Below are positions 1-16,352 of a stretch of DNA of 17,469 nt, piece by piece. The translations under genes were made by a program, and so were the position numbers. Location of the stretch: positions 1-17,469 of the forward strand of contig DASVDK010000146.1 in NCBI GenBank assembly GCA_036381125.1, in the 5' to 3' direction. Each line of letters starts with the position of its first letter. Positions within the stretch are counted from its first letter, which is position 1. Under the pieces are notes generated by a model, which was given only the letters and a program-made list of their open reading frames with translations, searched no databases and was not told where the DNA came from. Source of the stretch: DASVDK01 sp036381125 [NCBI: Thermodesulfobacteriota bacterium]. GTDB lineage: Bacteria > DASVDK01.

Positions 1-321
1 CTCGAGGCCTGTCTCGCCGAGGGACGGGCGGCGCGCTCGATCGAGGCCTTCGAGCGGGCGGACGGCGCGCTGCACCTCGCCATCGTGCGCGCCACGCACA
101 ACCGACTCCTCGAGGCGGCGATCGAGGGCATCGACCGCGCCCGCCAGAACGCGGCGTGGGGGAAGCTCAAGCGCGACACGCTCACCCCCGAGCGGCGGGC
201 CTCGTACCAGGCCGAGCACGAGGCCATCGTCGCCGCCCTGCGCGAGCGCGACGCGGACCTCGCCCGCGCGCGGATCGCCGAGCACCTCCTCCACGTCCGG
301 AAGAACCTGCTCGGGTACTGA
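1..321 (+). CDS. GntR-family transcriptional regulator, FCD domain, C-terminal part only
   Basis: The frame is open from the first base, so the gene begins upstream of the window and only the last 106 residues are present. They read as the helical ligand-binding FCD domain of FadR-subfamily GntR regulators: an LHLAIVRATHNRLL helix (the F/L-H-x-A-I and H-N-R-L signature), then HEAIVAALRERDADLARARI and a final EHLLHVRKNLL helix. The His residues in these helices are the usual metal or ligand contacts of FCD domains. The winged-helix DNA-binding half lies outside the window. Regulators of this type usually control nearby catabolic or transport genes and respond to an organic acid; the ligand cannot be told from this part. 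The gene is followed 27 bp later by a strong hairpin, which suggests it ends its own transcript. Confidence 0.85.
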   Translation, partial: LEACLAEGRAARSIEAFERADGALHLAIVRATHNRLLEAAIEGIDRARQNAAWGKLKRDTLTPERRASYQAEHEAIVAALRERDADLARARIAEHLLHVRKNLLGY

Positions 322-348
322 CGCCGCGCCCGCGCGCGCCGCTACCGC

Positions 349-371
349 ACCGGCCGCCCAGGGCGGCCGGT
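349..371 (+). terminator. GC-rich hairpin after the GntR gene
   Basis: A perfect inverted repeat with 11-bp arms (ACCGGCCGCCC and GGGCGGCCGGT) around a single A at 360, starting 27 bp after the regulator stop codon. No T-tract follows, so it is not a textbook intrinsic terminator. A very stable hairpin at this place may still stop or stabilise the transcript; a regulator operator is the alternative. Confidence 0.45.
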
Positions 372-421
372 CCGACCGCCGCCTTCGCGAACAGGGTTCG
401 TGTCGGACAGGGAGGTCACTC

Positions 422-1153
422 ATGCGCGGCATACGCTCGCCCGGACTCCAGGGCGGCCTGCTCGTCGCCGCCGCCGTCGGCCTCGTCCTCGTCGTCCTCG
501 CCTCCGGAGACCCCGCCACCGGCCAGGGGCGGTCCGCGCCGCCGGGCGCGACCGGCACGCACCACGTCCTGCCCGCCACGCTCGAGACCGTTCAGTGGGG
601 CTGGCTCGATCCCAAGGAGCCGCCGAAGCTCACGATCGAGTCGGGCGACACCGTGGCGGTCGAGACGATGATGCACTCCCACGACAAGATCCAGCCGGGC
701 GTGACGATGGAGGAGATCGTCGCGCTCAGGAAGGCCAACCCGGGCGGCGGCCCGCACTCGCTCACCGGGCCCATCTACGTGAAGGGCGCCGAGCCGGGCG
801 ACGTCATGGAGATCCGGATCCTCAAGATCGTCCCGAAGCCCTTCGGGACCAACTTCAACCTCCCCGGGAAGGAGTTCCCGACCATCGGCGCGCTGGCGCC
901 CGAGTTCCCGAACGGCTGGGTCCGCTACTTCGTGTTCGATCCCGAGCTCGAGACGACCGAGTTCAGGCCGGGCATCACGCTCGACCTGCAGCCCTTCCCG
1001 GGCACGCTCGCCGTCGGCATCGACCCCGACGACCCCTACGAGGCCTACGCGCTCACGTCCATGGCGGTCGACTGCCGGGTGAGCCAGATCGTGGACGTCC
1101 GCAAGGGGGTCCACTGCATGGTGCCGAAGAGCCTCTTCACCGACCGCTCCTGA
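422..1153 (+). CDS. Acetamidase/formamidase-family protein, exported, with an internal in-frame deletion
   Basis: 243 residues starting at an ATG behind a good AGGGAGGT ribosome site at about 408-416. Residues 1-38 look like a long signal peptide or membrane anchor (hydrophobic run GLLVAAAVGLVLVVLA). The rest matches the FmdA/AmdA amidase family: an N-terminal half with EPGDVMEIRIL and a PFPGTLAVGI segment, and the C-terminal segment EAYALTSMAVDCRVSQIVD followed by KGVHCMVPKSLF. Family members are normally about 300-400 residues. The whole central part, including the conserved GDxHxxQGDGE-type stretch, is missing: residue 205 (Pro, after GIDPDD) runs straight into the C-terminal EAYALTS helix. 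The join lies near 1031-1036. As written it is unlikely to be an active amidase. The ORF is intact, so it is listed as a CDS, but a decayed gene or assembly error is possible. The following gene starts at the overlapping TGATG at 1151-1155. Confidence 0.75.
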   Translation: MRGIRSPGLQGGLLVAAAVGLVLVVLASGDPATGQGRSAPPGATGTHHVLPATLETVQWGWLDPKEPPKLTIESGDTVAVETMMHSHDKIQPGVTMEEIVALRKANPGGGPHSLTGPIYVKGAEPGDVMEIRILKIVPKPFGTNFNLPGKEFPTIGALAPEFPNGWVRYFVFDPELETTEFRPGITLDLQPFPGTLAVGIDPDDPYEAYALTSMAVDCRVSQIVDVRKGVHCMVPKSLFTDRS

Positions 1154-1244
1154 TGGGGCCCGTGGCGCGACGGGGGAGCGGCTGCGCGTCGTCACGACCA
1201 CCACCGACCTGCGCTCGCCCGTCGAGGCCGTCGGCGGCGACCTC

Positions 1245-2030
1245 GTGACCGCCGTGAGCCTCCTCGCGGCGGCCCAGAACCCGCACGCCTTCGCGGCCCG
1301 GCCGCGCGACCTCGCGGCCGTGCGCGAGGCCGACCTCCTGGTCCGGATCGGGCTCGATCACGAGCCGTGGACGCGAGCCCTCGTGGCGCGCGCCGGCAAC
1401 CCCCGCATCGCGCTCGGCGGGCCGGCCGACGTCGTGGTCTCGAAGGGGCTCGACCTCCTCGAGCCGGCCGCTCGCACGGGCGGCCCGCCCGGGCATGCCC
1501 ACGCCTTCGGCAACACGCACGTCTGGCTCGACCCCGGGCACGCCGAGCCGATCACGCGGGCCATCGCGGACGCGCTCGCCGCGGCGCGCCCGCGCGAGCG
1601 CGAGGTCGTCGAGGCTCGCCGCGCGGAGCTGCTCGCGCGCGTCGAGGCCGGCCTCGCCAGGTGGACCGCCCGCCTTGCGCCCTACCGGGGGATCCGGGTC
1701 GCGGCGGTGCACGACAGCTTCCCGTACCTCGCCCGGCGCTTCGGGCTCGAGATCGTCGGGCACCTCGAGCCGCAGCCGGGGATTGCGCCGCCGCCGGCCC
1801 ACCTCGCGCGGCTCGCCGCCGAGATACGCCGTCACGGCGTCCGGGTCGTCCTCGCCGAGGCGTGGCAGCCCGAGGACCTCGCCCGGCGCGTGGCCTCGGC
1901 CGCCGGTGCGACGGTCGTCCTCCTGCCCACGTCGGTCGACAGCGTCCCCGGCACGGGCGACTACGTGGCCCTGATGGACGTGATCGTCGAGCGGCTCGCG
2001 GCCGGCCTCGCGGCCGCCGCCGCGCGGTAG
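1245..2030 (+). CDS. Zinc/manganese-type ABC transporter substrate-binding protein (ZnuA/TroA family), N-terminus defective
   Basis: Cluster A-I (TroA/ZnuA) metal-binding protein that would hand Zn2+ or Mn2+ to the permease encoded just downstream. Visible metal-site signatures, numbered from the GTG at 1245, are H14 in QNPHAF, H92 in NTHVWLDP, H156 in AVHDSFPYL, and the acidic SVDSVPGTGDYVALMD segment near the C-terminus. A short His-containing stretch (GHAHAFGNTH) replaces the long His-rich loop of many ZnuA proteins. Family-like sequence (GERLRVVTTTTDLRSPVEAVGGDLV) continues in the same frame upstream to about 1173, but there is no ATG/GTG/TTG there and no signal peptide. The ATG at 1153-1155 that overlaps the preceding stop is in another frame, which closes at 1248. 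Translation may start at GTG 1245 or a weak CTG at 1182, or the gene may have lost its 5' end. The 3' end is normal and lies 8 bp before the permease start. Confidence 0.75.
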   Translation: MTAVSLLAAAQNPHAFAARPRDLAAVREADLLVRIGLDHEPWTRALVARAGNPRIALGGPADVVVSKGLDLLEPAARTGGPPGHAHAFGNTHVWLDPGHAEPITRAIADALAAARPREREVVEARRAELLARVEAGLARWTARLAPYRGIRVAAVHDSFPYLARRFGLEIVGHLEPQPGIAPPPAHLARLAAEIRRHGVRVVLAEAWQPEDLARRVASAAGATVVLLPTSVDSVPGTGDYVALMDVIVERLAAGLAAAAAR

Positions 2031-2038
2031 CGGCGATC

Positions 2039-3175
2039 GTGGACGCGCTCGTCTTCCTCTGGCCCGCCCTGGCCGCCGGTCTCGTCCTGGCGGGCATCCA
2101 CGCCTACCTCGGTCTTCACGTTCTCGTGCGCGGCGTCATCTTCGTCGATCTGGCGCTCGCCCAGGCGGCGGCGCTCGGCGCGGCGGTGGCGACGCTGGCG
2201 GGCCACCCGTCCCAGGGGGCGACGACCTTCGGCTACTCGCTGGCCTTCGCGCTCGGGGGAGCCGGCCTGCTGGCGCTCTCGCGGCAGCGGCACCCGCGTG
2301 TGCCGCAGGAGGCGCTCATCGGGGTCGTGTACGTCGTCGCGGCTGCCCTCGTCGTGCTCGTCCTCGACCGGTCGCCCGAGGGAGCCGAGCGCGTCAAGGG
2401 GCTCCTGCTCGGCGACATCGTCACCATCGATGCGGCGCACGTCGGGACGCTGGCGCTGCTCTACGCCGCCGTCGGCGCGATCCTGGCCGAGGGCGTGGGA
2501 CGCCGCCTCGCGATCGGCTGGACCGTGGGGGAGGCCGGCGCCGTGGCCGGGCTCGGCGCCTCGCTCGCCTTCGACCTGCCGACCGGCGCGGCGATCGTCT
2601 CGCTGCTCGGGCTCGCGCTCCTCGGCGTCCTGGCTGCCCGCGCGGCCCTCGGCCCCCGGGGGCGGCGGCGAGAAAGCCTCGCGCGGGCCGGGCGCGTGGT
2701 CGTGGCCGGGGGCGGCATCGCGCTCGCCGCCGCAGGCGCCGGCCTGGCCGCCTTCCCGGCCTGGAGCTACGGCTGGCTCACGCTGATCGAGCGGGCGCTG
2801 CCGCTCGTCGAGACCGCCTTCCTCACGCCGGCCGAGCGGCAGGTCCGCGAGGACACGCTCCGGACGGCCGCCTGGAACGAGGCGGAGGTCGCCCGACTCG
2901 CGGCCGTGCGGGAGGCCGTGCGGTTCGGGGCGCGGACCATGGACGCCGAGGCCGAGGACCGGCTCCGGCAGTACCTCCTCGCGCGGCAGGAGATCGCGGC
3001 CGGCGACCGGTTCGTGCTCGCGGCGCTCCGGGGCCGCGCGCGGGCCAGGCAGCGCTTCGTCGTCGGGGTCCCGCTCGTCGTCGGCGGCGTCGCTCTGGCC
3101 TTGTGGTCCGTCCGGCAGCGCTATGGGAGTGGAAGGGCGGGGTTGGTGCCCCACTCTAAGGCACGGATTAGCTGA
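2039..3175 (+). CDS. Metal ABC transporter permease (ZnuB/ABC-3 family) with extended C-terminus
   Basis: Starts at GTG 2039, 8 bp after the binding-protein stop. An in-frame ORF reaches back to 1367 but only overlaps the previous gene, so that extension is rejected. Residues 1 to about 220 are the multi-helix ABC-3 permease core: LAAGLVLAGIHAYLGLHVLVRGVIFVDLALAQAAALG at the start, a VPQEALIGVVYVVAAALVVLVLD segment, LLLGDIVTI, and later helices including LPTGAAIVSLLGLALLGVLAA. This core would form the membrane channel for Zn2+ or Mn2+. After about residue 225 there is another hydrophobic helix, a charged soluble stretch of about 80 residues (rich in Ala, Arg and Glu), and a last helix (VVGVPLVVGGVALALW). 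At 378 residues it is about 100 longer than typical ZnuB. The last 15-20 residues (after QRYG) have a different base composition and probably come from the inserted block. No ATPase gene is present beside it. Confidence 0.8.
   Translation: MDALVFLWPALAAGLVLAGIHAYLGLHVLVRGVIFVDLALAQAAALGAAVATLAGHPSQGATTFGYSLAFALGGAGLLALSRQRHPRVPQEALIGVVYVVAAALVVLVLDRSPEGAERVKGLLLGDIVTIDAAHVGTLALLYAAVGAILAEGVGRRLAIGWTVGEAGAVAGLGASLAFDLPTGAAIVSLLGLALLGVLAARAALGPRGRRRESLARAGRVVVAGGGIALAAAGAGLAAFPAWSYGWLTLIERALPLVETAFLTPAERQVREDTLRTAAWNEAEVARLAAVREAVRFGARTMDAEAEDRLRQYLLARQEIAAGDRFVLAALRGRARARQRFVVGVPLVVGGVALALWSVRQRYGSGRAGLVPHSKARIS
3127..3156. other. Inverted repeat at the left edge of the lower-GC block
   Basis: GAGTGG at 3127-3132 pairs with CCACTC at 3151-3156, and an inner GGGG/CCCC pairing is also possible. 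It lies at the point where composition changes, between the end of the permease core and the convergent stop of the TPR gene. It may be a two-way terminator for the convergent genes or mark the insertion edge. The arms are short and no T-tract follows. Confidence 0.25.
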
Positions 3176-6100
3176 TAAGGCCTCGACTCAAGGCACGCTG
3201 CTGCTCCCACAGTTCAATGCTACGGAATATCGTATGCTCTGCCAACGGAAGCAAAGCCAAGCGAGGTCTCAAAGCCGCCCTGAGTTTGCGAAGGACCCGG
3301 CTCACCAGACGACCAGTGGTCAGGACAGTGAGCACCAAGTCAAGTACCGCCAACTTCTGGTGATACAGCGCCTGTTCCAGCCAAACGGTTCGTATTAGAC
3401 TAGCCAGTATGACTACGGCTCGATCCTCATCGCATTCCGGCCCTTGTAGCAGATCAAAGACTCGGGCTGTCTTTCGGTCGACATTCATTTCTCCATCAAG
3501 TAGCATCCCGAGTAGCGTTTCCGCATCGACGGACAGGAAGTGATAGTTGCCGCCCACGAGCTTCCTTATCGCATCCCGGTATCCTTTCGCTTCTAGCAGG
3601 CCGCGATCCCGCATGGCCTGCAAGACTGTTTGGGTCCAGAGCCCGTCCACGCCCCACTCAGCTTGTGCGACACGACGAAGTGCGAGGTCGTCGGCGTAAA
3701 GCGGCGCTCCATGTTCGCTCGCAACTAAGGCGGCCGCCGCGGAGGCTTTCCCAAGAACTTGCTCAAACTCCTCCAATCGAGCCTTGCCCAGGGTTAGAGC
3801 CGCGGATACAGGCACAACCTGCGCGCTCGATGAGATAAACTGGAGGATCGTCTCAGGCACCGTTCTCCTTCGTGTCCATGCCTCGGGGCTGATCTCCTCG
3901 TGTACGTATCGGTCTCCGATCCTCGCCAATGTGCCGGCGGGTGGTGGCAACATGTCGTCTTCGACAATGGCCTCTGTAAGAGCATCGATCACCGCCTGCG
4001 GCACGAGAAGCCGTTCGACGAGCTTCGGCAGTAGCGGCAAGAGGTTGAGGTAGTGAATCCCCAAGAGGGCCGTTAGATCGACTACTATCGTCCGCGCCGT
4101 AGCAAGCAGTTCTCTTTCTTTTGCGAGCTCCTCGGCAATACCTCCCGAAGCCACGAGACGGGCTTCTGGCATCGAAATCAACCCCATCCAGGTGTCGATC
4201 AGGCTACTATGAGTCGCCTTTGCGACAGCGCCAAGAGGGAACTGTCCCGTGCGATGGAGCTTAACAGCCGCCTCCACCTGACGCGCACGCGCATCGACCG
4301 CAGCGAGGATCTTCGAGACATCGCCTTCGGCTATTTCGAGTCGATGCAAGCCTTTGTTCTCGGGGAACCATGTGGTGAACGTACTGAACGTCTCCTGGAA
4401 GGCGAAGACGTATTTGCTCTGCACGTCGACGACCTCATAAGGCGGCTCTTCGAATGGCTCGCTCCTCAGAGACACACGGCCCCCTTTGCGGAGTCCCAAG
4501 AGTCTCTTCGCCAAAGGATCATCCAGGGCAAGCTCGCAACGCTCTAGTTGGGGAGTTCCCTCTGCTAGAAGTGTAAAGTGCCGTTTCTCTGCCCCGCGCC
4601 TAAGGTGGACAGTGCAATCGGGAACAACATGATCGACGGACAGGACCGCCTCGTCTGATTTCTCATGGGCGAGAAACAGCCCTGCGTACTGCAAGTGGAT
4701 CTGCGGGTCGTTGAACCCAATGCGCCGCGCTAGGTATGCGAGCGCCAGGGCACCATCGAGTCCAAGTAATCGACGCGCCTGTGCGACCTCCATAAGCGCA
4801 CGGGCGTTCTGTTCGATATCTTGCCTTCTGATGGAGGTGACGAGCGTGCGAGCGGAATCCCGATCACCCATCCGAATGTCCAACTTAACGAGGCGCAGGC
4901 GGTGCTCAATACGGTCTGGTTCGAGGGCCGCAAGGGCAGCTGTTAACTTTCTCGCCTCTCGGATATCGCCGATGTACTCGAGAATGCGCGCCTCGACCTC
5001 GGAGACGACGGGTATAGGGCCAGTGTCTCCACGAATGCTCTTGGCGATGAGAAACGCCTCGCGTAGTGAACCCGAGTTGAGCAGGCTGATTAGATATTTC
5101 CGAAGAATAGGGTTGTCGCGCTGGGTGTCGGCGATACGCCCAAGCGTCTCTGCCGCTTCTGGATATCGCTGTTGCTCGTAGTACAGAAGACCGAGATCGA
5201 GAGCGATTCTCTCGCTTTGAGGCCCTGATGAGTATCCAAGAGCTTCGCGGAGAAGCTCTATCGCTTCGTCTGGACGCCTTTGGGCCCGCCGGCAACGAGC
5301 TGCTGCCGCCAGTGCCTCGGGGTCGGCTGGCCAGGTCCGACTAATGGACCGAAGCACCTCCTCGGCGGCCGGCATATCGCCGTCTTCGGCAAGGGCGACG
5401 GCAAGTATCTCGGATATCACGAGTTGCTCAGCGTCGTGGAGGTCGGGACGCCAAAGCCGCCTGAGCAGGGTCGCGGCGTCCGCCGGTCGTCCAACCCGTC
5501 GGAGGGTTTGAGCTACAAGTGCCGCGATATCCGGATCGTCCTGTCCCTGTGGGATGCGCTGGAGAGTCGCTAATGCCTCTTCCGCCTTCCCGGTCTCGAG
5601 AAGGGCCGACGCTTTGAGCTTGCTGGCTCGACGCTGTGAGGCATCGAGTAGCAGCGCCCGGTCGCAATCAGCGGCTGCTTCTTCAGCTCTTCCAAGAAGG
5701 AGACGCACGGCTGCGCGGTTCGTGAGAGCGTCACTAAGGCGTGACGGGCTCTCGTGGTCCTCAAGTAAGACCACGGCTCGCGACAGTGCCTCTTCTGCTC
5801 GCTCGGCTGGGTCACGCTGGGCCGCCGACAATCGCCAAGGGAGGGGAGGGTTCGAAGCTATGGACTCCTGTACCGGATTGAAGAGCGCTTGGGCCAGTAG
5901 CGCATGAGCGTCAGGATCCTCCGGCTGCTCCTGGACAGCTCTGCGAAGGAAGGGCATCGACTCGGCGTATCGGCCTCTACGATTCCAAAGCTCACCAAGT
6001 ACGAGAGCGCATGTCCCGTCAGCGGCTATCCAGGGTTCGGCTGCGAGAAGGTCTTGAATCTCGTCCGTGTGGCCTAGTCGATCAAGCGCTTGAATATAGA

Positions 6101-7064
6101 CAGCCCTAGCTTGCGGGTCGTTAGGGGCGAGGCCTCTGGCTTCAGTGCTCAGCCGCCTTGCCTCCTCTAGCTCGTCTCTGAGGAGGGCGGCAGTAGCTGC
6201 GTTCGTCAGCGCCGTTGGATGACCCGGACGCAACGCCAATGCGACATCGAACTGCCGAACGGCAAACGTGGTATCGCCCAGTTGGAGCGCACACGCCCCA
6301 AGGTTCGTGGCAAGCCGGAACGCGATGTCGACTGAAGGTGAGGTATCGCCGATCTCGGCACGAACGGCCTCCAACAGTTGGCGTGCGCTGCGGGCGCGTC
6401 CGCGGATGAGTAGAGAGCGGGCCGCGTCGATCTTGGCGTGTACCTTAAGGTCCGAGGTCTCGCGAGCCCGGCCGGAGTCATCTGGTGGAATACGAGGAGC
6501 CAGATCGCTTGCAGGTGCCCTTTGCATCTGGATTTCGCGGAGCGATTGGCGCTGTAAATCGAGCAGTTGCTGAGTTGATTCGTCAACGCGGCTGAGAATG
6601 TCTGCCGCGCGCGCCTGTCGATCTAGTACCGCTGAAGTCAGCACCTCTGTTCGGGCTGCTAAGGTTGGCAGTCCCTCGTCTGTCTTGAGTAGTTCATACT
6701 CGAGGTGCTTCGCGAATGTCGTCAGGATTTGGTGTGCGGCCGCGCGGCTATCGCCGGCTGCTTCAAGTTGCGTTTGCTGGATGAAGCCGTCAACGAGGTC
6801 CACGTCGACGATGTCGCGATCGCCGGCCCTGAGGCGCTTCACAGTGCGCTCAAAGTCGGCGCTGCCGATCCAGGCTTCAAGAGCGAAGGTCACGGTGAGT
6901 CGCGTGATTGGAAGGTCGCCACAGTCGGCTTGCGTAGCAGCGATAGCCCGTCGTACCGGAGGGGTGCGAACCAGTGCCGCGAAGCCGCCCCTAGCAGCGG
7001 CGCTGATGATCGGGCTAGCAACCTTCCAGAGCAGTTCAGTTAGCGTTATCCCGTCAAGCATCAC
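3168..7064 (-). CDS. TPR-GreAB-C-PIN protein, predicted conflict/defence ribonuclease
   Basis: 1298 residues. The codons GTG (7064) and ATG (7061) are adjacent; a GAGG 8 nt before the ATG favours 7061. Residues 1-215 are a mostly helical region I do not recognise, ending in a coiled-coil-like stretch. About 215-810 is a long array of TPR-type helical hairpins (for example RARSARQLLEAVRAEI, TNLGACALQLGDTTFAVRQF, DLGLLYYEQQRYPEAAETL). About 815-895 resembles the GreA/GreB C-terminal domain: CELALDDPLAKRLLGLRKGG with DD at 848-849, then YEVVDVQSKYVF. From about 985 a PIN-like nuclease fold follows: TIVVDLTALL with D996, a helix with several acidic residues (VIDALTEAIVEDD), and LYADDLALRR with D1125/D1126. 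The last 150 residues are helical. GreAB-C binds RNA polymerase in Gre factors and PIN domains cut RNA, so a nuclease aimed at transcription or nascent RNA is plausible but inferred. The gene is convergent with the metal permease (8-bp overlap) and has no obvious partner gene. Composition indicates transfer. Confidence 0.85.
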   Translation of the reverse strand: MMLDGITLTELLWKVASPIISAAARGGFAALVRTPPVRRAIAATQADCGDLPITRLTVTFALEAWIGSADFERTVKRLRAGDRDIVDVDLVDGFIQQTQLEAAGDSRAAAHQILTTFAKHLEYELLKTDEGLPTLAARTEVLTSAVLDRQARAADILSRVDESTQQLLDLQRQSLREIQMQRAPASDLAPRIPPDDSGRARETSDLKVHAKIDAARSLLIRGRARSARQLLEAVRAEIGDTSPSVDIAFRLATNLGACALQLGDTTFAVRQFDVALALRPGHPTALTNAATAALLRDELEEARRLSTEARGLAPNDPQARAVYIQALDRLGHTDEIQDLLAAEPWIAADGTCALVLGELWNRRGRYAESMPFLRRAVQEQPEDPDAHALLAQALFNPVQESIASNPPLPWRLSAAQRDPAERAEEALSRAVVLLEDHESPSRLSDALTNRAAVRLLLGRAEEAAADCDRALLLDASQRRASKLKASALLETGKAEEALATLQRIPQGQDDPDIAALVAQTLRRVGRPADAATLLRRLWRPDLHDAEQLVISEILAVALAEDGDMPAAEEVLRSISRTWPADPEALAAAARCRRAQRRPDEAIELLREALGYSSGPQSERIALDLGLLYYEQQRYPEAAETLGRIADTQRDNPILRKYLISLLNSGSLREAFLIAKSIRGDTGPIPVVSEVEARILEYIGDIREARKLTAALAALEPDRIEHRLRLVKLDIRMGDRDSARTLVTSIRRQDIEQNARALMEVAQARRLLGLDGALALAYLARRIGFNDPQIHLQYAGLFLAHEKSDEAVLSVDHVVPDCTVHLRRGAEKRHFTLLAEGTPQLERCELALDDPLAKRLLGLRKGGRVSLRSEPFEEPPYEVVDVQSKYVFAFQETFSTFTTWFPENKGLHRLEIAEGDVSKILAAVDARARQVEAAVKLHRTGQFPLGAVAKATHSSLIDTWMGLISMPEARLVASGGIAEELAKERELLATARTIVVDLTALLGIHYLNLLPLLPKLVERLLVPQAVIDALTEAIVEDDMLPPPAGTLARIGDRYVHEEISPEAWTRRRTVPETILQFISSSAQVVPVSAALTLGKARLEEFEQVLGKASAAAALVASEHGAPLYADDLALRRVAQAEWGVDGLWTQTVLQAMRDRGLLEAKGYRDAIRKLVGGNYHFLSVDAETLLGMLLDGEMNVDRKTARVFDLLQGPECDEDRAVVILASLIRTVWLEQALYHQKLAVLDLVLTVLTTGRLVSRVLRKLRAALRPRLALLPLAEHTIFRSIELWEQQRALSRGLIS

Positions 7065-7468
7065 GATCGCCTCAGTGACTACGGTTCGGGTGCACCTAAT
7101 AGATCCGTCCCGGACCCGGTAACCGTTGCCCTACCTCCCGCACCGCGCATCACCGGCTTCTGAAAGTTCTTGCGCCGGCCGCGTGACACGCGATCCACAA
7201 GCCGTACCGTGATGAGAGACGCAACCGCGAGCTTCTTGGAAGCGCTGAATCTTTCAGGGTTCGCAAAGCCGCCACCCGCGTTCTCCTACTGGCAGGAGGA
7301 GCCGGAGCAGGGGGGACCGTGAGATAGATGCAGTTCCCGCTCACAGCGTAGCTCGGCCGACAGCCCGCCCTAGAACCTGTTATGCACCTCCCGCTGCCGG
7401 CATCCGAACGATTCGGGCCAGCGCGAGACCGGCGACGGCTATGAGACCGAGTCCGACGCCCTCGCGGG
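7065..7468. other. About 400 bp with no convincing gene, right part of the lower-GC block
   Basis: The stretch separates the TPR gene from the HNH gene on the same strand, so these two are probably not one transcript. On the plus strand a 36-codon ORF runs from ATG 7212 (or GTG 7209) to TGA 7320-7322 and reads MRDATASFLEALNLSGF then PPPAFSYWQEEPEQGGP. It lacks a clear ribosome site and I recognise no family; it may be chance or a remnant. A minus-strand ORF over the same bases (7344-7150) looks like a shadow. Composition changes back to high GC near 7380. Confidence 0.3.
7096..7122 (-). promoter_or_regulatory. Weak promoter candidate for the TPR-GreAB-C-PIN gene
   Basis: On the minus strand a TATTAG (7101-7096) lies about 35 bp before the start codon, with TTACCG (7122-7117) upstream at 15-bp spacing. 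Both boxes are imperfect and the spacing is short. The position would give a short leader. It is the best match I see in the upstream 100 bp. Confidence 0.2.
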
Positions 7469-8674
7469 CTACGGCGGCTGCCAGGCCGACGCCCAACTCG
7501 GTCCGGACCGAGTTCGCGTCGGGTCGGTGGCCCGGCACGCCGTGGCGTAGACGCGCCCCGGCTCCCGCACCAGCGACGGGCCCCAGGGGCCGAAGACCTG
7601 CTCGGCTTCGTAGGCGTTGTGCGCCCGGCAGCGCAGCTCGATGTTCTCCGCCGTCGCCGGCCCGCCCGCGGCGTAGGGCCGCACGTGGTGGAACTCGAGC
7701 CACCCGCGCTCCGTGCACCGGCGCCCCTTTGGGCTCACGAAGGCGCACCGCCCGCCATCCCGGGCCCAGACCGCCCGCCTGACCGCCGCCGGGACGTGCC
7801 GCGAGCCCGGGGTAGGCGTCTTGCCCACCCGCGGCCGGTCGGTAGCCGCGGCTTTCTGCTTCAAGAGCGCCTCGACGAGGACGGTGAGGGCGCGGTCGAG
7901 GACCTGCCCGACGTCCCCGTCGGGGATCTGGTGGCGCAGCAGGTCCTGCGCCAGCCGGAGCTTGGCATGGGTCTCCGCGCTCGCGGTGAACTGGACCTTG
8001 TAGCGCGCGGGCGCCAGGGGCGCGACGATCGGCGGCCGCGCGGGCGGTGCCGGGGCGGGCGCCGGCGGTGCGGCCGCCGGCGGTGACGAGGCGTGGTCGC
8101 CACCCTGGGGCGAGCGGGACCCCGTCGGCAGCGGCGCATCGCCCGGGATCGGGGGCACGGACGGGCGGACCGCCGGCGCCTCGGCCGGGGGCGAAGGCGC
8201 CGCGACCGGTGCCGTCCGCGGCGTCGGCAGGCGGCGGACCGAGGCGGGCACGGGGGGCTGGGGGCGGAGCGAGGCCACCAGGACCTCGACCTCGCGCCGG
8301 CTCTTGTGGCGGGCCCGCGCCAGCAGGTCCCGGTGGTTCTCAGGCGTGAGGTGGGCCGCGAGTAGCCCGACGGCGGTGAGGGTGACCGACCCGTCGGCGA
8401 GCCGGTCGAGGACGACGGGATAGCGTCGCGCCACACGAGCCGCCTCGATACGCCCGTACGCGGCGTGCTCGGACAGGTGGAGGCATTGGGTGCAGTAGGC
8501 GAAGAGCGACGGGTAGCCCTCGGCCAGGTAGAGGCGCCGCGCGTCGAGTTCGGCCAGGTGGGCGATCAACGCGACGGTCGCCTCGCGCTCCTGCGCGGCA
8601 AGCCGGGCGACCTGGGTGAGGAGGTCGGCGTCGGAGAGTCCAGTGAGAGAGGCGAGTCTGATCGTCGGAGCCAT
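7469..8674 (-). CDS. HNH endonuclease domain protein
   Basis: 401 residues from ATG 8674. Residues 1-130 are a helical domain (LSDADLLTQVARLAAQEREATVALIAHLAELDARRLYL, then a YPSLFAYCTQCLHLSEHAAYGRI segment) typical of a large family of HNH proteins that occur in many copies in high-GC genomes. About 140-225 is a low-complexity Pro/Ala linker. About 225-275 is a second helical part, and about 290-370 is the HNH nuclease: VWARDGGRCAF, LEFHHVRPYAAGG with H329/H330, ENIELRCRAHNAYEA. These give the His-His, Asn and His residues that bind one metal ion and cut DNA in HNH enzymes. The last 20 or so residues (after VREPGRVYA) look non-conserved and run through a 20-bp palindrome. The role in the cell is unknown for the family; mobility or recombination is often suggested. 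The nearest Shine-Dalgarno (GGAG) is only 1 nt from the ATG, so the start is not well supported. Confidence 0.85.
   Translation of the reverse strand: MAPTIRLASLTGLSDADLLTQVARLAAQEREATVALIAHLAELDARRLYLAEGYPSLFAYCTQCLHLSEHAAYGRIEAARVARRYPVVLDRLADGSVTLTAVGLLAAHLTPENHRDLLARARHKSRREVEVLVASLRPQPPVPASVRRLPTPRTAPVAAPSPPAEAPAVRPSVPPIPGDAPLPTGSRSPQGGDHASSPPAAAPPAPAPAPPARPPIVAPLAPARYKVQFTASAETHAKLRLAQDLLRHQIPDGDVGQVLDRALTVLVEALLKQKAAATDRPRVGKTPTPGSRHVPAAVRRAVWARDGGRCAFVSPKGRRCTERGWLEFHHVRPYAAGGPATAENIELRCRAHNAYEAEQVFGPWGPSLVREPGRVYATACRATDPTRTRSGPSWASAWQPP
7495..7514. repeat. 20-bp perfect palindrome, copy 1 (3' end of the HNH gene)
   Basis: AACTCGGTCCGGACCGAGTT is identical to its own reverse complement. 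It lies inside the last codons of the HNH reading frame. A near-identical copy is at 8890-8909, on the other side of the same gene. Confidence 0.8.
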
Positions 8675-8973
8675 GCTCCGTTTCTATCATGAGGGTTTCG
8701 GCAGGCTCTCCACGTGCCCCTGTGCGATGCGCGCCGCCCCGATCGGCTGGTGCGCCTCCGGTCGCGCAAACCGCGCCTGGCGGCCCATCCTGGGCCGCGG
8801 AGGGCCGATCTACGGGCGAACCATCGCGCGCTGCAGGCTCGCCGTGCGCGCTGTCAAGGATTTTTTCGAGGTCGTGCGTGTATCACCGCAACTCGGTCCG
8901 AACCGAGTTGAGCCGCTCGGCGGGCCGGTACCGCGGGGAATCAGTGAGCCCGCGAGCAGGAAGAGCGCGCCCC
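8675..8973. other. Non-coding gap between the TRAP permease end and the HNH start
   Basis: About 300 bp, with both neighbours on the minus strand. It holds palindrome copy 2 and, on the minus strand, a perfect TTGACA (8857-8852) preceded by an A-rich run (GAAAAAATCC). No good -10 box lies 16-18 bp downstream (GCAGCG at the expected place), so a promoter for the HNH gene is only a weak possibility. I see no RNA gene or real ORF. Confidence 0.35.
8890..8909. repeat. 20-bp palindrome, copy 2 (upstream of the HNH gene)
   Basis: AACTCGGTCCGAACCGAGTT differs from copy 1 at a single central base. It lies 216 bp before the HNH start codon and 64 bp after the TRAP permease stop codon. The flanking bases C and G extend the outer palindrome by one pair here. 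It could form a hairpin that ends the TRAP transcript, but no T-tract follows. Confidence 0.75.
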
Positions 8974-10890
8974 TCACGCGGCCCGCGCCCGCCGCCCCTC
9001 GATCGCCTGCCAGCCGAGGACGAGGGCGAACCCCGCGAGCCCGGCCGCGTCGGCCACCGGGTGGCCGTACACCAGGGCGAGCCCCGAAGCGACCAGGATC
9101 ACCCGCTGCGGCCAGGAAGCCCGGTGCAGGAGGAAGCCGCCCGCGCCTGCCACGAGCGCCCAGATCCCGGCCACCGCGGTGCCGACCGCGAGCACCACCT
9201 GCGGCGCGGGGCCCTCGAGCAGCAGGCCCATCCCCTCGGGCGTCAGGACGAACATGAACGGCACGACGAAGGCGGGCAGGGCGTACTTCCAGGTGATCCA
9301 CATGGTCCGGTACGGGCTGCCGCCCGTGATGGCCGAGACGGCGAAGCAGGAGAGGGCGGTCGGCGGCGAGACCTCCGAGAGGAGCGCGTAGTAGAAGATG
9401 AACATGTGCGCCGCGGCCTCGGGGACGCCCACGGTCTTGAGGGCCGGCGCCAGCATGACCGCCGCGATGATGTAGGACGCGGTGATCGGCAGGGCGAGGC
9501 CGAGCACGAGGAGCGCCAGGGCCGTGTAGAGCGCAGTGAGGAAGAGGCTGCCGCCCGCGAACTGCACGATGATGCCGGAGAACTTGAGGCCGAGGCCGGT
9601 CAGGTTCACGACGCCGACCAGGATGCCCGCCACGGCGCAGGTTGCGGCGACCGGCAGGATGGCGAGGGCGCCCCCCTCGAGCGCCTTGAGGAGCTTCGGC
9701 GGCGTCAGCATGGTGTCCCGCCTGAGGAAGCTCGTGGCGACGGCGACGGCGATGCACCAGAAGACGGCCCACATCGCCGAGAAGCCCATGGCGAGGAAGA
9801 CCACGATGGCCACCAGGCTCGTGAAGTGGAACCAGTACCGGCGAACCAGCGGCCCGAGCGCCGGCACGTCCAGGTCGACCCGCCGCTCGCCGATCGTCCG
9901 CGCGTCGAGCTCGATCATGAGGAAGATCGAGAGGTAGTAGAGCACCGTGGGGACGATGGCCCACTGGATGACCTTGAGGTACGAGACCTGCGTCAGCTCG
10001 GCGATGATGAAGGAGGCCGCCCCCATGACGGGGGGCGAGAGCACGGCGCCGATGCCGCCGGCGGAGAGGACCGCCCCGGCCGCCTCGCGCGAGTAGCCCG
10101 CCTGCCGCAGGAGGGGGAAGGTCACCGAGCCGAGCGTCACGGCGGTCGCCACGCCGCTGCCCGAGGGGCCGCCGAGGAGGAACGAGGCGAGCGTCACGGT
10201 CCGTCCCGGACCGGCCCTCTTGCGCCCCATCGCGGCCAGCGAGAAGTCGACGAAGAACTTCCCCGCGCCCGACTGGTCCAGGACGGCGCCGTAGACCGTG
10301 AAGAGGATGATGAAGGTGGCCGAGACGGCGATCGGCGTCGAGAAGATGCCCTCGAGCGTCATGTACTGGAGTCCCACCACCCGCTCGAGGTCGTACCCGC
10401 GGTGCCCCCAGGGGGCCGGCAGCCAGGTGCCGTAGAAGGCATAGGCGAGCGCCAGCACGGCGAGCGCCGGCAGCATCCAGCCGGTGGTGCGGCGCGCCGC
10501 CTCGAGGACGAGGAGGATGGTCGCCACGCCGAAGACGACGTCCGCGGGGTCCATGAAGGACGCGCGCTCGACGAAGCCGTCGAAGTCGACGACCACGCGC
10601 GACATGGCGGCGGCGCCGATCAGCGCGAAGGCGAGGTCGAGGAGCGTCGGCCGGGCGGCGCGGTAGGCGGGGTAGAGGAGGAAGACCAGCGCGAGGACGA
10701 GGCCCACGTGGACCATGCGCATGATCTGCGCCGGCACCACGCCGACGGCTGACCAGAGGCCCCAGAGGCTCGTGGCCACGGCGAGGAGGCCGACGAGGCC
10801 GCGCGGCCATCCGTGGAGCTTCCGCGCCCCGCCCTCGTACTTCTCCAGGATCTCCTGGACCTGCGCCTCGTTCAGGCCGGGCTCGGACAC
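8974..10890 (-). CDS. TRAP transporter permease, 4TM/12TM fused (DctQM-type fusion)
   Basis: 638 residues from GTG 10890, chosen over an upstream start at 10956 because AAGGAGG lies 5 bp before the GTG and the family start (VSEPGLNEAQVQEILEKYEGG) follows. The cytoplasmic first 30 residues carry the EKYEGGAR motif usual in these fusions. Then comes a small-subunit-like group of helices (about residues 35-165) and a large-subunit group with the conserved GGPSGSGVATAVTLGSVTFPLL (about 230-255) and the later FIFYYALLSEVSPPTAL segment. It belongs to the TIGR02123-like fused permeases that work with TAXI binding proteins, moving an organic substrate inward by ion symport. The start codon lies within the end of the DUF1850 gene (19-bp overlap), so the two are translationally linked. 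The last four helices after residue 540 are usual for the family. Confidence 0.93.
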   Translation of the reverse strand: MSEPGLNEAQVQEILEKYEGGARKLHGWPRGLVGLLAVATSLWGLWSAVGVVPAQIMRMVHVGLVLALVFLLYPAYRAARPTLLDLAFALIGAAAMSRVVVDFDGFVERASFMDPADVVFGVATILLVLEAARRTTGWMLPALAVLALAYAFYGTWLPAPWGHRGYDLERVVGLQYMTLEGIFSTPIAVSATFIILFTVYGAVLDQSGAGKFFVDFSLAAMGRKRAGPGRTVTLASFLLGGPSGSGVATAVTLGSVTFPLLRQAGYSREAAGAVLSAGGIGAVLSPPVMGAASFIIAELTQVSYLKVIQWAIVPTVLYYLSIFLMIELDARTIGERRVDLDVPALGPLVRRYWFHFTSLVAIVVFLAMGFSAMWAVFWCIAVAVATSFLRRDTMLTPPKLLKALEGGALAILPVAATCAVAGILVGVVNLTGLGLKFSGIIVQFAGGSLFLTALYTALALLVLGLALPITASYIIAAVMLAPALKTVGVPEAAAHMFIFYYALLSEVSPPTALSCFAVSAITGGSPYRTMWITWKYALPAFVVPFMFVLTPEGMGLLLEGPAPQVVLAVGTAVAGIWALVAGAGGFLLHRASWPQRVILVASGLALVYGHPVADAAGLAGFALVLGWQAIEGRRARAA

Positions 10891-11408
10891 GGCGCCTCCT
10901 TGTTGCCGGGTCGTCCGACCGCCGGCCGGAGGAGGGCGACGGCCGCCGGCCGCCACCGCACTTCGAGCGTCAGCGCGCCGCCCTCGCCCGCCAGGGCGCG
11001 CAGCGGAACGGTGCAGCCGTCGACGACCAGCGAGCGGTTGCCGATGGCCGTCGCCCGGATGCGCAGCCGCTCGTGCGCGAGGCCGAGCCGCACGAGCCGG
11101 ACGTCGCCGTCGGCCGCCTGCACCGCGGCGCCCGGGATGTCGTAGTAGCCGACGATGTCGAGGCGCGTCGAGCGGATCTCCTCGAGCACGAGGCGCAGCC
11201 GCGCGTCCACCTCGAACCGCTCGCGCACCGGCACGTCGAACATCGAGTGCCGGTAGGTCAGCTCCACGCCCTCGCCGGGCGCCACGAGCCGGGCGAGGCG
11301 CGGCCGTCCCGGCGCGTCGGGGGTTGCCTCGAGCACCGGGACCGGCAGCGTCACGGCGCCGGCCAACAGCATCACCGCGAGGAGGTCGGGCCGGCAGCCG
11401 TGCGCCAC
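10872..11408 (-). CDS. DUF1850 domain protein of the TRAP operon
   Basis: 178 residues from GTG 11408, only 4 bp after the TAXI gene stop. It has an N-terminal hydrophobic segment (LLAVMLLAGAVTLPVPVL), probably a signal peptide or anchor. The domain itself has GEGVELTYRHSMFDVPVRERFEV, where the YRHSMF-type motif is typical of DUF1850, and ends with a WRPAAVALLRP strand. DUF1850 genes lie very often between TAXI binding proteins and fused TRAP permeases, as here. A role as an accessory periplasmic or membrane component of the transporter is inferred from that neighbourhood; no biochemical role is established to my knowledge. Confidence 0.85.
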   Translation of the reverse strand: MAHGCRPDLLAVMLLAGAVTLPVPVLEATPDAPGRPRLARLVAPGEGVELTYRHSMFDVPVRERFEVDARLRLVLEEIRSTRLDIVGYYDIPGAAVQAADGDVRLVRLGLAHERLRIRATAIGNRSLVVDGCTVPLRALAGEGGALTLEVRWRPAAVALLRPAVGRPGNKEAPCPSPA

Positions 11409-11412
11409 GCGG

Positions 11413-12375
11413 CTACTTGCCGGTCCAGACCCCGCGCTCGCGGTAGTACCGGATCGCGCCGGGATGGTACTCGGCCGGTGCGCCCTGCGAGGCGCTCTTG
11501 AGGTCCAGCTCCTTGGCCGCCGGGTGGACGGCCACGAGCTCGGCCTTGTGGTCGAACATGGTCTTGAGGATGTTGAAGGCGAGGTCGGCCGGCATGTCCC
11601 TGTGCACGGCGAGGACGTTCGGCACCGCGGCCACCTTCACGTCCTTGTCGACGCCGGGATAGGTGCCGCCCGGGATCGTGGCCACGACGTAGAGCGCGCC
11701 GTACTGCTGGACGAGGGCGGGCACCACGTCGTCGGTCGGCAGGAGGGCGATGCGCTGCCCGGGCGTGGCGGCCAGCTCGAGCACGCCGGCCGTCGGCAGC
11801 CCGCCCGACCAGAAGAAGGCGTCGATCTTGCCGTCCTTCAGCGCGTCGGCCGACTCGCCCACGCCGAGGCGCTCGCGGCTGATATCCTTGAGCCAGTCGA
11901 GGCCGTTGGCCTTGAGGATGCGGTCGGCGATGATCTCCGTGCCGCTGTTGGGCGAGCCGGTCGAGACGCGCTTGCCCTTGAGGTCCTTGATCGACTTGAT
12001 GCCCGAGTCGGCCTTGACGACGACGTGCGTCATGTTGCCGTAGAGCACGGCGAGCGACTGGATGGGCAGCGGCTCCTTGAACTTCCCCCGGCCCGTCACC
12101 GCGTCGTGGAGGGTGTCGGCCAGCGTGTAGGCCAGCTCCGCACGGTGAGTGGCGAGGAGCTGCATGTTCTCGACCGACGCGGCCGTGACCTCGGCCGTGG
12201 CCTCGACGCCCGGGAGGTGCTGCGTCAGGACCTTGGCGAGCGCGCCACCATAGACGTAGTAGACGCCGCTGGTGCCGCCGGTGGCCACCGACAGGCGCGT
12301 CTGGGCCACCGCGTCGGGCGACGGCCAGAGAAGGATGGCCGCGAGCGCGGCCGCGAAGCGCACGAGCGTGTGCAT
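11413..12375 (-). CDS. TAXI-family TRAP transporter solute-binding protein
   Basis: 320 residues from ATG 12375, with AGGAGGT about 10 bp upstream. Residues 1-24 are a signal peptide (LVRFAAALAAILLWPSPDAVAQ). The mature part starts with the TAXI hallmark RLSVATGGTSGVYYVYGGALAKVL, followed by SVENMQLLATHRAELAYTLADTL, the KSIKDLKGKRVSTGSPNSGTE loop that contacts the ligand, and FFWSGGLPTAGVLELA. It would bind the substrate in the periplasm for the fused permease at the end of the operon. The family includes glutamate or other dicarboxylate binders, but the ligand cannot be read from sequence. It is the first gene of the operon, divergent from the oxidoreductase gene across 168 bp. Confidence 0.93.
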   Translation of the reverse strand: MHTLVRFAAALAAILLWPSPDAVAQTRLSVATGGTSGVYYVYGGALAKVLTQHLPGVEATAEVTAASVENMQLLATHRAELAYTLADTLHDAVTGRGKFKEPLPIQSLAVLYGNMTHVVVKADSGIKSIKDLKGKRVSTGSPNSGTEIIADRILKANGLDWLKDISRERLGVGESADALKDGKIDAFFWSGGLPTAGVLELAATPGQRIALLPTDDVVPALVQQYGALYVVATIPGGTYPGVDKDVKVAAVPNVLAVHRDMPADLAFNILKTMFDHKAELVAVHPAAKELDLKSASQGAPAEYHPGAIRYYRERGVWTGK

Positions 12376-12543
12376 ATCGTTGTCCGACCTCCTGAAACGC
12401 CGTTCGATTTCTGGCGGGGCCTCATTCAGGATAGCGCGGTGACGGGCAGCACGGGGCCTGGTCGTCCGGGCAGCGCTCGATTGTGACGGCGCCGCGGCGC
12501 GCGGGTCCGGGGCCGCGGGTTCGGGTCAAGGAGGGAGACGACG

Positions 12544-13452
12544 ATGCGCATCCTCGTCACGGGCGCCACCGGCTTCATCGGCTCGGCCCTGGTACCGTTC
12601 CTCGTCGCGCGCGGCCACCGGGTGACTCGCCTGGTGCGGCGCGACGTTCCGGCGATCGCCGGGGCCGACGACCTCCGATGCGACCTCGTTTCGGGGAGCC
12701 TCGATCCGGCTGCCCTGGAGGACCACGACGCCGCGATCAACCTCGCGGGCGAGAGCGTGGCCGAGCGGTGGACGCCCGAGAAGAAGGCCCGGATACGGGC
12801 CAGCCGGGTCGACGGAACGCGCCGGCTGTCCGAGGCGCTCGCGGCCCTCGCGCGGCCGCCGCGCGTCCTGGTCTCGGCCTCCGCCATCGGCATCTACGGA
12901 GACCGCGGGGACGAGCGGCTCACCGAGGCCTCCGCGCCCGGCCGCGGCTTCCTCGCGGAGGTGGCGCAGGCGTGGGAGGCCGCGGCCGAGCCGGCCCGGC
13001 GGCGGGGGATCCGGGTGGTGCACCCGCGCATCGGCACGGTCCTCTCGCCCGGCGGCGGCGCGCTCGCGCGGCTCCTGCGGCCGTTCAAGCTCGGCGCCGG
13101 CGGCAAGCTCGGCAGCGGGCGGCAGTGGACGAGCTGGATCGCCCTCGACGACCTGGTGCCGCTCCTCCTCCATCTGACCGCGGACACGACGCTCGAGGGG
13201 CCGGTCAACGCCGTGGCGCCCGGGGCGCTGACGAACGCCGAGTTCGGCCGGCTGCTCGGCAAGGTGCTCGGCCGGCCGACGGCGCTCGGCGTGCCGGCCT
13301 TTGCCGCGCGCATGGCCTTCGGGGAGATGGCCGACGAGGTGCTGCTCGCCTCGACCCGCGTCATCCCGGCGAAGCTCGAGGCCGCGGGCTACCCCTTCCG
13401 CCATCCGGAACTCGAGGCGGCGCTGCGGCACATGCTCGGCCTCTCTCGCTAG
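12544..13452 (+). CDS. TIGR01777-family NAD(P)-dependent epimerase/oxidoreductase (YfcH/SDR39U1-like)
   Basis: 302 residues, the normal family length, from ATG 12544 behind AAGGAGGGAG. It is an extended short-chain dehydrogenase: the Rossmann motif GATGFIGS at residues 7-14, then AAINLAGESVAERWTPEKKARIRASR (the NLAGE and RWT-K-I-SR pattern that marks the TIGR01777 group), SASAIGIYGDRGDE (the Ser/Tyr region), and GSGRQWTSWIALDDLV in the second half. C-terminal ends of this kind carry the DUF1731 helical segment (ARMAFGEMADEVLLASTRVIPAKLEAAGYPF). The cofactor is expected to be NADP. The substrate is unknown for most members; SulA-like division effects have been reported for relatives. It stands alone here. 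Confidence 0.93.
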   Translation: MRILVTGATGFIGSALVPFLVARGHRVTRLVRRDVPAIAGADDLRCDLVSGSLDPAALEDHDAAINLAGESVAERWTPEKKARIRASRVDGTRRLSEALAALARPPRVLVSASAIGIYGDRGDERLTEASAPGRGFLAEVAQAWEAAAEPARRRGIRVVHPRIGTVLSPGGGALARLLRPFKLGAGGKLGSGRQWTSWIALDDLVPLLLHLTADTTLEGPVNAVAPGALTNAEFGRLLGKVLGRPTALGVPAFAARMAFGEMADEVLLASTRVIPAKLEAAGYPFRHPELEAALRHMLGLSR

Positions 13453-13465
13453 CGCACGTGGCGCG

Positions 13466-13493
13466 GCCGAGACGAGCAACGGCTCCTCTCGGC
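13466..13493. terminator. Hairpin between convergent genes
   Basis: GCCGAGA (13466-13472) pairs with TCTCGGC (13487-13493) over a 14-nt loop, 13 bp after the oxidoreductase stop. A second small hairpin (GGCAGG AG CCTGCC, 13496-13509) follows directly. The site lies between two convergent genes, where a two-way terminator is expected. There is no T-tract. Confidence 0.3.
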
Positions 13494-13563
13494 GTGGCAG
13501 GAGCCTGCCCTCGCGTCCATGGGCGGCCACGACTGCGGACCGGCCGCCCCCGACCCCATGGAC

Positions 13564-14673
13564 TCACCACGCCGCCCGCGTGGGAACGCGACGCGCCACG
13601 TGTGGCGGCTGCCCGGATCTCGTGGGCATTCCGGGTGCGTCCGGGCCGGGCTCGCCGAGCGCGGCGCGCCACCGCTCGAGGGCCGCCGGAGCGAGCCGCC
13701 GCGCGGCGCGCGAGGGGAGGAGCGGGACGAGGAGGAACCAGGCGGCGAGGGCGGCCCGACGGCCAGCAGGGCCGTCGCGGCGGCGGCAGGCGGCGGCGAG
13801 GCCGCGCGCGGCAAGGAAGAGGCGGCCCTCGTCGGGCTTCGGGTACGCGGCACGGTCGGCGACCCTGAGGACGAGGCGGGCCGCCGCGCACCAGGGGTCG
13901 CGCAGGGCGAGGTCGGCCGGCACCGGGAAGCCGTACGCCTCGGCGGTGCGCCGGACGAGCGCCTCGCGCTCGATGGCCTGCGCGACCGCGCGGGCGAGCC
14001 GGGTCGTCGTGTCGCCGGCGGAGGCGGTCCGGTGCTCCCGGGCGTCGAGCCGGTAGTCGCCGAGCGGCGCGTCGATCGCGACGACCCGCCCGTGGAAGGG
14101 GAGACAGGCAGCGAGGTAGGCGTCCGCGCCGAGCGCGCCCTCCCCATCGGGGATGGGCAGGAGGGCCGAAAGGGCGTCGCGGCCGTACGCGTTGCCGGAG
14201 GCCGGGGGACAGGGGTAGACGAACCGATCGAGCAGCTCGTACCTCAGGTCTCCCGCCGGCAGCGGCGTCCGGGCGTCGGGGACAAGGGGGCCCCGCGGGC
14301 GACCCGCGGCGTCGACCACCCGCAGCCGGAAGTGGACCTTCGCCACGTCCGGCCGCCAGGCGGCGGCCACCCGCGCCGCGGCCTCCGGCGCCAGACGATC
14401 GTCGCCATCGAGCGTCAGCACGACCTCGCCGCGGCTTGCCTCGAAGCCGGCGTTGAGGGCCGCGGCACGGGTCCCGTTCGGCCTGAGCAGCGGGACGACC
14501 CGACGGCCGTAGCGGGCGATCAGGCCGCGGACGGCGCCACGCGGGCCGGCGTCCACGACGATCACCTCCAGGCGCGGGTAGCGTTGCGCGACCGCGCTCT
14601 CGATCGCCTCGCGGAGCCACCGCTCGCGGCCGACGCTCGTGATGACGACGCTGACGCGCGGTTGCGCGCCCAT
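13564..14673 (-). CDS. Family 2 glycosyltransferase
   Basis: 369 residues from ATG 14673, with AGGAGG 8 bp upstream. A longer ORF reaching 14925 has no family sequence before this ATG and is rejected. The GT-A fold is plain: RVSVVITSVGRERWLREAIESAVAQ, then LEVIVVDAGP, a TRAAALNAGFEASRGEVVLTLDGDD segment with the metal- and sugar-nucleotide-binding DGDD at residues 89-92, and an acceptor-side region around SGNAYGRDAL and GADAYLAACLPFHG. The C-terminal 100 residues are helical and variable. It transfers a sugar from a nucleotide donor to an unknown acceptor. It has no other cell-envelope genes around it, so its pathway cannot be inferred. Confidence 0.88.
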   Translation of the reverse strand: MGAQPRVSVVITSVGRERWLREAIESAVAQRYPRLEVIVVDAGPRGAVRGLIARYGRRVVPLLRPNGTRAAALNAGFEASRGEVVLTLDGDDRLAPEAAARVAAAWRPDVAKVHFRLRVVDAAGRPRGPLVPDARTPLPAGDLRYELLDRFVYPCPPASGNAYGRDALSALLPIPDGEGALGADAYLAACLPFHGRVVAIDAPLGDYRLDAREHRTASAGDTTTRLARAVAQAIEREALVRRTAEAYGFPVPADLALRDPWCAAARLVLRVADRAAYPKPDEGRLFLAARGLAAACRRRDGPAGRRAALAAWFLLVPLLPSRAARRLAPAALERWRAALGEPGPDAPGMPTRSGQPPHVARRVPTRAAW

Positions 14674-14804
14674 CGCTCGGCCTCCTGGCGTGGGGACGCT
14701 CGACGCCGCCGCGGGGTGAGGCTTGCTCGTTTCGTGCCGCCGGCCGGCCGCGGGCGCGTTCCGTCCGGGGCGGCATTCTCGGGACGGCATTCCGGGACGA
14801 GCCC

Positions 14805-14835: not shown

Positions 14836-14884
14836 ACGGGATACCGCCCGAGAGCCGAACAACTCGTCCGCGGAGGAGCGAGCC

Positions 14885-16340: not shown

Positions 16341-16352
16341 GGGGGATCCTCC

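Follow-up and report, generated by a model that had tools for sequence, protein, structure and literature searches.

The window considered here is the whole 17,469-nucleotide stretch of contig DASVDK010000146.1 (GenBank assembly GCA_036381125.1, Thermodesulfobacteriota bacterium, DASVDK01 sp036381125; positions 1 to 17,469 of the forward strand). On its minus strand, at 3168-7064, it carries a single uninterrupted open reading frame (ORF) for a protein of 1298 residues, which, from its profile matches, almost certainly belongs to the TPR-GreA/B-C-PIN family of predicted conflict proteins. An initial annotation of this DNA had described one 1298-residue protein with a helical N-terminus, about 600 residues of TPR-like hairpins, a GreA/GreB C-terminal-like segment and a PIN-like region; the ORF, the repeats (Pfam TPR_19) and the order of the domains have all been confirmed by profile searches and predicted structures. 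The first codon is GTG at 7064 and the second ATG at 7061, the latter being the likelier start because a GAGG is well spaced ahead of it. Residue numbers count the GTG as 1. The features of the locus are as follows.

3168-7064, minus strand: whole ORF, 1298 residues (1297 with the start at ATG 7061-7059)
3660-4085, minus strand: PIN domain, residues 994-1135 (PF20698, E=1.5e-18)
4077-4079, minus strand: D996, first PIN acid
3984-3986, minus strand: D1027, second acid
3735-3737, minus strand: A1110, at the position of the third acid
3687-3689, minus strand: D1126, fourth acid
4380-4649, minus strand: GreA/B C-terminal domain, residues 806-895, containing DDPLAKRLLG at 848-857
4695-6449, minus strand: TPR array, residues about 206-790 (Pfam TPR_19, E=6.3e-34, 7 stretches)
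6450-7064, minus strand: helical N-terminal module, an orphan, residues 1-205 (predicted helices of low confidence)
4110-4334, minus strand: helical linker, residues 911-985, helix-turn-helix-like by eye (predicted helices 917-938, 944-950 and 955-963)
3171-3632, minus strand: helical C-terminal domain, residues 1145-1298 (predicted helices, some conserved columns)
7070-7073, minus strand: GAGG, Shine-Dalgarno-like, 8 nucleotides before ATG 7061 (read from the sequence)
3100-7380, no strand: low-GC segment holding the ORF (by GC contrast with the flanks; edges approximate)

The profile matched by residues 994-1135, PF20698, is described as the 'PIN domain associated with the TPR-GreAB-C-PIN system'; the window protein scores 67.8 bits (cut-off 27.8), and all members of a 16-member family alignment (16/16) match it as well. 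An AlphaFold2 model of residues 785-1298, obtained with a three-row alignment (the window protein and the relatives L159 and L158) and with a mean predicted local distance difference test score (pLDDT) of 62, agrees with both the PIN and the GreA/B-C folds. When compared with VIA-align, the PIN part of the model superimposes on 2mdt (model 207-376, window 991-1160; Z 9.9, root-mean-square deviation, rmsd, 3.0, 118 residues aligned), on the SMG6 PIN 2hww (model 201-372; Z 9.0, rmsd 2.6, 125 aligned) and on VapC 5ecw (Z 7.6, rmsd 3.5, 123 aligned). The pLDDT is 81-93 over most of the domain, with dips to 45-55 at approximately 1035-1064 and to 60-70 at approximately 1085-1104.

The acidic residues were followed in a 27-row alignment of family members, from which the interrupted or cut L014 and L015, L100-L109 (short pieces, mostly duplicates of longer loci), L120 (the protein of L017) and the long L123-L125 were excluded; for the later additions L219-L224 only the N-termini were read. 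Position 996 is Asp in 27/27 members, position 1027 is Asp or Glu in 22/27, position 1110 in 23/27, and position 1126 is Asp in 26/27 and Glu in the other (1/27). The full set of four acids is found in 21/27 members, the window protein having three of the four: the acid at 1110 is missing in it, as in L018, L019 and L117, and R1130 is retained. In the model the acids were followed by their order along strands and helices. The initial annotation had pointed to D996 and to D1125/D1126 as the PIN acids; the first and D1126 hold up well, whereas D1125 is less conserved, being acidic in only 17/27. The Ala at 1110 had not been remarked on in it. Position 1110 is that of the Asp of the 'D..hhA' helix that precedes the D1126 strand, where VapC-type PINs have an active-site Asp, and we infer by this analogy that it is a catalytic site. 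A local hhalign comparison with VapC-type frames (those >60% gapped excluded) gives a register at 1110 that roughly agrees, at a value that is not significant (0.5). With an Ala replacing one motif acid, the nuclease activity of the window copy is uncertain. The window PIN shares with VapC- and SMG6-type nucleases the fold and the acids D996, D1027 and D1126, but differs in being fused rather than part of a toxin-antitoxin pair, in lacking the third acid and in belonging to a family that the VapC-type profile misses.

On its own, the window sequence shows the GreA/B C-terminal domain weakly (NCBIfam GreA, E=0.013 for residues 804-882; Pfam GreA_GreB is not among the 24 families listed for the window protein). 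The profile-profile comparison proposed at the outset was carried out with hhalign between the 27-member alignment and a GreA-type alignment consisting of K-12 GreA and up to 21 frames found with it (rows >70% gapped dropped; E-values refer to a single comparison), and gave 98.6 for residues 806-895 and 98.7 for residues 785-910 versus 0.0-0.1 for seven other segments of the same alignment, with the match spanning 77/79 template columns. Pfam GreA_GreB is matched at E≤0.1 by 5/16 members, another two relatives reach 27.0 and 25.7 bits with it (cut-off 26.9) in the same long frame as their PIN, and a three-member family profile finds GreA 1grj in the PDB with E=0.01. In the model, window residues 814-883 (model 30-99), where ten-residue pLDDT means are 53-65 (residues 815-884), superimpose on GreA/GreB 2pn0 (Z 8.2, rmsd 2.9, 70 aligned), on Gfh1 2eul (Z 7.5, rmsd 3.0, 69 aligned), on GreA 1grj (Z 6.7, rmsd 2.8, 64 aligned) and on the Gfh1 chains of polymerase complexes 3aoh (Z 7.2) and 3aoi (Z 7.1). 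The reading of the DDPLAKRLLG stretch as part of a GreA/B-C-like segment has been confirmed; within it G857 is conserved in 24/27 members, P850 in 13/27 and A852 in 15/27. The protein is like GreA, GreB and Gfh1 in this C-terminal domain, by profile and by fold, and unlike them in that no coiled-coil arm is visible and the domain is embedded in a 1298-residue TPR protein. For the linker that follows, pLDDT block means are 38-69, and one relative matches HTH_upst_double_PIN with E=0.019, below the cut-off of that family. In the C-terminal domain the block means are 36-69 beyond residue 1165.

At the other end of the protein, a model of residues 1-345 is confident in the TPRs only (block means 79-95 over residues 211-340). 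The helical N-terminus claimed at first is predicted for residues 1-205, but with low confidence (ten-residue pLDDT means 33-64). A Pfam search with a 300-residue N-terminal query returned only TPR_12 at 215-279 and nothing in residues 1-205; the best PDB match of the module had an E of 0.65, NCBIfam gave only a weak match to EzrA (residues 57-180, E=0.11), and a single plasmid match at E=9 was taken as chance. Against 4139 frames (≥150 residues) of the collected loci phmmer found none, and the best BLAST match, E 0.057, was again taken as chance. In relatives this slot is occupied by several kinds of module. An endonuclease-like motif is present in 19/27 members, an assignment that is motif-based for most N-termini, Pfam Mrr_cat matching 2/16 members, weakly, and L003 not at all; PNP_UDP_1 is found in a Nostoc member, DUF4365 or HNH_2 in L222 and L223, and the remainder have no assigned family. 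The N-terminal module, as judged from these assignments, varies across the family while the TPR-GreA/B-C-PIN core stays. Because the slot holds endonuclease-like, nucleoside-phosphorylase or HNH modules in relatives, the PIN need not be the sole effector of the window protein.

The family is divergent, identity between the window protein and the 26 other aligned members being 11-25% over residues 806-1160, and it was reached by indirect routes. With tblastn the window protein found none in plasmids at 1e-5, and residues 815-1298 none in phages at E≤10; peptide words led to no confirmed relative in viral contigs or genome contigs. Relatives were reached via three weak plasmid matches (E 0.02 to 4), 3/3 of which were confirmed by PF20698. 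DNA-pattern searches, which gave four viral contigs each, yielded L158 and L159 as members; L156, L157, L160 and L161, from the same patterns, are not family members. L159 (IMG/VR UViG 3300005804_000095) can be aligned over window residues 152-1227 (23% identity) and shares a non-endonuclease, helical-looking N-terminus followed by TPR-GreA/B-C-PIN, but its first 150 residues have no homology to the window protein recognisable by BLAST. A tblastn search with another relative, P0003, returned 48 plasmid records, 11 of which cover ≥80% of P0003, while at least three of the listed matches correspond to its N-terminal part only. A whole-protein search of 240 genomes gave matches in 66, those listed lying within the TPRs with a single exception, a match at residues 814-885 (36% identity, E=7.4e-4) to a true GreA. 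The PF20698 cut-off was exceeded in 9/398 Pseudomonadota genomes and 0/14 control genomes, and in further, overlapping draws in 1/385, 4/369 and 1/15.

Five long proteins (L123, L124, L125, L223 and L224; 1928-2072 residues) also match PF20698, over the cut-off in L223 and sub-threshold in the other four; the one at L124:3830-9652 (minus strand) starts with the bacterial Death-like domain bDLD3 (E=4.5e-21), and its PIN match lies in the middle of the protein. They are perhaps a sister family. Two plasmid relatives, at L014:7845-14600 and L015:6968-8590, lie next to IS66 and IS21 elements and are interrupted or cut there.

The composition of the gene sets it apart from its surroundings. GC at third codon positions (GC3) is 0.62 versus 0.92-0.97 in seven other window genes, and the GC content of the ORF is 59.8% with flanks of 75.8% and 74.0%. 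On the low GC3 and low overall GC, the gene looks foreign to the surrounding chromosome, as a horizontally acquired low-GC insert would. At the ends of the insertion, neither a long flanking repeat, nor a tRNA gene, nor an Rfam match was found. Promoter-like sites (3 versus 0.6 expected) and terminator-like sites (3 versus 2.9 expected) were not used as evidence. The neighbours in the window are zinc-transporter genes, an HNH-type ORF, TRAP transporter parts, an oxidoreductase, a glycosyltransferase and two agmatinase-like genes, i.e. unrelated chromosomal genes, consistent with the mostly standalone habit of TPR-GreA/B-C-PIN genes. The C-terminus of the zinc-transporter permease-like ORF extends into lower-GC DNA at 3100-3172, so that the insertion may have replaced that end. 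The HNH-type ORF (7469-8674, minus strand) adjoins the PIN gene and matches Pfam HNH with E=0.0014, just under the cut-off, with no NCBIfam match at 1e-5. The agmatinase-like genes, named by eye, lie in tandem at 15429-16340 and 16353-17282 and are 80% identical to each other.

The TPR, GreA/B-C and PIN core was named in a computational survey (eLife 2021, PMC8195603), the passages of which on this system describe a swappable N-terminal domain of 14 kinds, EAD10 among them, with WP_017307658.1 of Fischerella as the exemplar, and relate GreA/B-C to FKBP-like domains. In the proposal set out there, GreA/B-C engages the beta' coiled coil of RNA polymerase that has been hijacked for transcription of viral DNA, the PIN then cuts the transcript, and the N-terminal effector acts as a second line. 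In an earlier paper of this type (PMC7159879), GreA/B does not come up in the main text beyond unrelated words. The statement of the initial annotation that this domain order had been named in computational surveys of conflict systems is borne out by these passages and by PF20698, and the mechanism it offered, in which an RNase is positioned at transcribing polymerase, essentially matches the hypothesis of PMC8195603. The window gene is a further member of this already described family, and its kind is not new: it has the same order of variable N-terminus, TPRs, GreA/B-C and PIN in a standalone gene, and differs from the system as described there in an N-terminal module without a Pfam match and in Ala at PIN position 1110. 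What it adds is a member with no assigned front end and with an altered PIN motif.

Other known systems were considered and set aside. The match to GAPS6 (GapS6b, NF047936) reaches 13.4 bits against a cut-off of 850 and covers only residues 652-748, i.e. TPRs. The PADLOC candidate PDC-S70 is matched weakly over 40-62 residues at the start of the PIN (E=4e-4 for the window protein, 7e-5 for P0003), and was not adopted, the match being partial and 6/7 relatives tested having none at E≤0.01. The DefensePredictor systems DS-3 and DS-5 are reported in PMC13092281 as PIN nucleases with catalytic residues required for phage defence, in a main text from which 'GreA' is absent as a whole word. DS-3, as described there, is like the window protein a single PIN protein with no antitoxin, but its PIN is split between the N- and the C-terminus, and identity with it was not adopted.

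A defence role of the window protein is likely by analogy, given the plasmid and prophage carriage and the neighbours of its relatives. In L158:783-12530, an IMG/VR contig, the member gene (6817-10857, minus strand) lies between phage portal, major-head and protease genes and an integrase, and by this gene order the system is carried by a prophage. The short member at L117:5053-10166 (1100 residues, different N-terminus) adjoins a DarTG-like pair of genes, one for DarT (E=6.5e-52) and one for a Macro-domain protein (E=6.8e-26). A named defence or toxin-antitoxin gene is nearby in 10/17 annotated plasmid loci fetched (L003, L004, L005, L006, L008, L010, L012, L013, L018 and L019), the types being Shedu, endonuclease/AAA and helicase pairs, CBASS phospholipase, AbiE, an abortive-infection protein, SIR2, TIR, RES, RelBE and VapBC. 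In the first ten plasmids the count is 6/10 at the locus versus 1/10 (a VapB gene) half a plasmid away (one-sided Fisher p=0.029).

Several observations weigh against taking the window protein as an RNA-cutting defence protein. The neighbour genes were judged by name, by eye and after the loci had been seen, with a small control, and the neighbourhood is for this reason only modest support; no known defence gene was seen beside the ORF among the window genes. A1110 breaks the usual acid set of PINs, and the VapC-type frame profile does not recognise the PIN of the family (hhalign 0.5). A Foldseek search returned nothing at E≤0.001 (best 0.025; rows 5 to 7 were GreA/GreB 2pn0 and VapC-type PINs), and several of the VIA-align Z values are <8, a range in which the tool cautions that a common arrangement can be enough.

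Membership, domain order, foreign composition and the existence of a family with differing N-terminal modules on mobile elements are established at the level of sequence. Beyond that, our preferred reading, held tentatively, is that of a horizontally acquired single-gene conflict protein, probably anti-phage, acting by docking and RNA cutting. The TPR array would sense, or would hold the protein off; GreA/B-C would dock on the beta' coiled coil of RNA polymerase at the secondary channel, in the manner of Gre factors; upon infection the PIN would cut RNA at or near the docked polymerase, and the N-terminal module would provide a second output. For the window copy itself docking and cutting are more doubtful, because of A1110: with a PIN lacking one motif acid, RNA may be cut poorly, and more of the effect may fall to the helical module at the N-terminus. 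Alternatively, the PIN of the window copy would be a structural or RNA-binding remnant, and the N-terminal module the effector, freed by the TPR sensor while GreA/B-C watches polymerase. This is somewhat unlikely: the loss of the acid, shared with L018, L019 and L117, and the effector-like modules of relatives speak for it, but D996, D1027, D1126 and R1130 are retained and the window module itself has no assignable function. It is improbable, as things stand, that a new, perhaps oligomerising or membrane-acting, helical effector at the N-terminus is taking the place of the nuclease, which would leave a polymerase-watching sensor with its output moved from RNA cutting to another form of cell shutdown.

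The GreA/B-C domain admits two further explanations. By sitting at the rim of the secondary channel like Gfh1, it might shut off transcription or displace Gre factors, with RNA cutting secondary, as the fold match to Gfh1, including the chains from polymerase complexes, would allow; the missing counterpart of the Gre/Gfh1 coiled-coil arm and the invariance of D996 make this unlikely. That it is an FKBP-like binder of a target other than polymerase (e.g. the ribosome or a phage protein), where the PIN would cut RNA, appears quite improbable: the kinship with FKBP-like domains noted in the passages of PMC8195603 on the system and the uneven conservation of DDPLAKRLLG (G857 well above P850 and A852) point that way, but the GreA C-domains are matched by profile specifically and over nearly their full length. 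An ordinary TPR regulator without a role in conflict would fit a gene that stands alone among ordinary chromosomal genes, but is very improbable in the light of the foreign composition, the sporadic presence in Pseudomonadota genomes, the carriage by plasmids and prophage and the differing N-termini.

The worth of the window gene is that of one more family member, whose front end differs and whose nuclease motif has changed. A published experimental test of the TPR-GreA/B-C-PIN proposal, or any tested example of immunity that checks polymerase and cuts its RNA, was not found in the open-licence literature. Four-acid proteins suited to a direct test occur among the relatives from plasmids and prophage, one of them being L003 of a Sinorhizobium meliloti plasmid. 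If the published proposal is true, the family would represent a form of immunity in which RNA polymerase itself is checked and its nascent RNA is cut.

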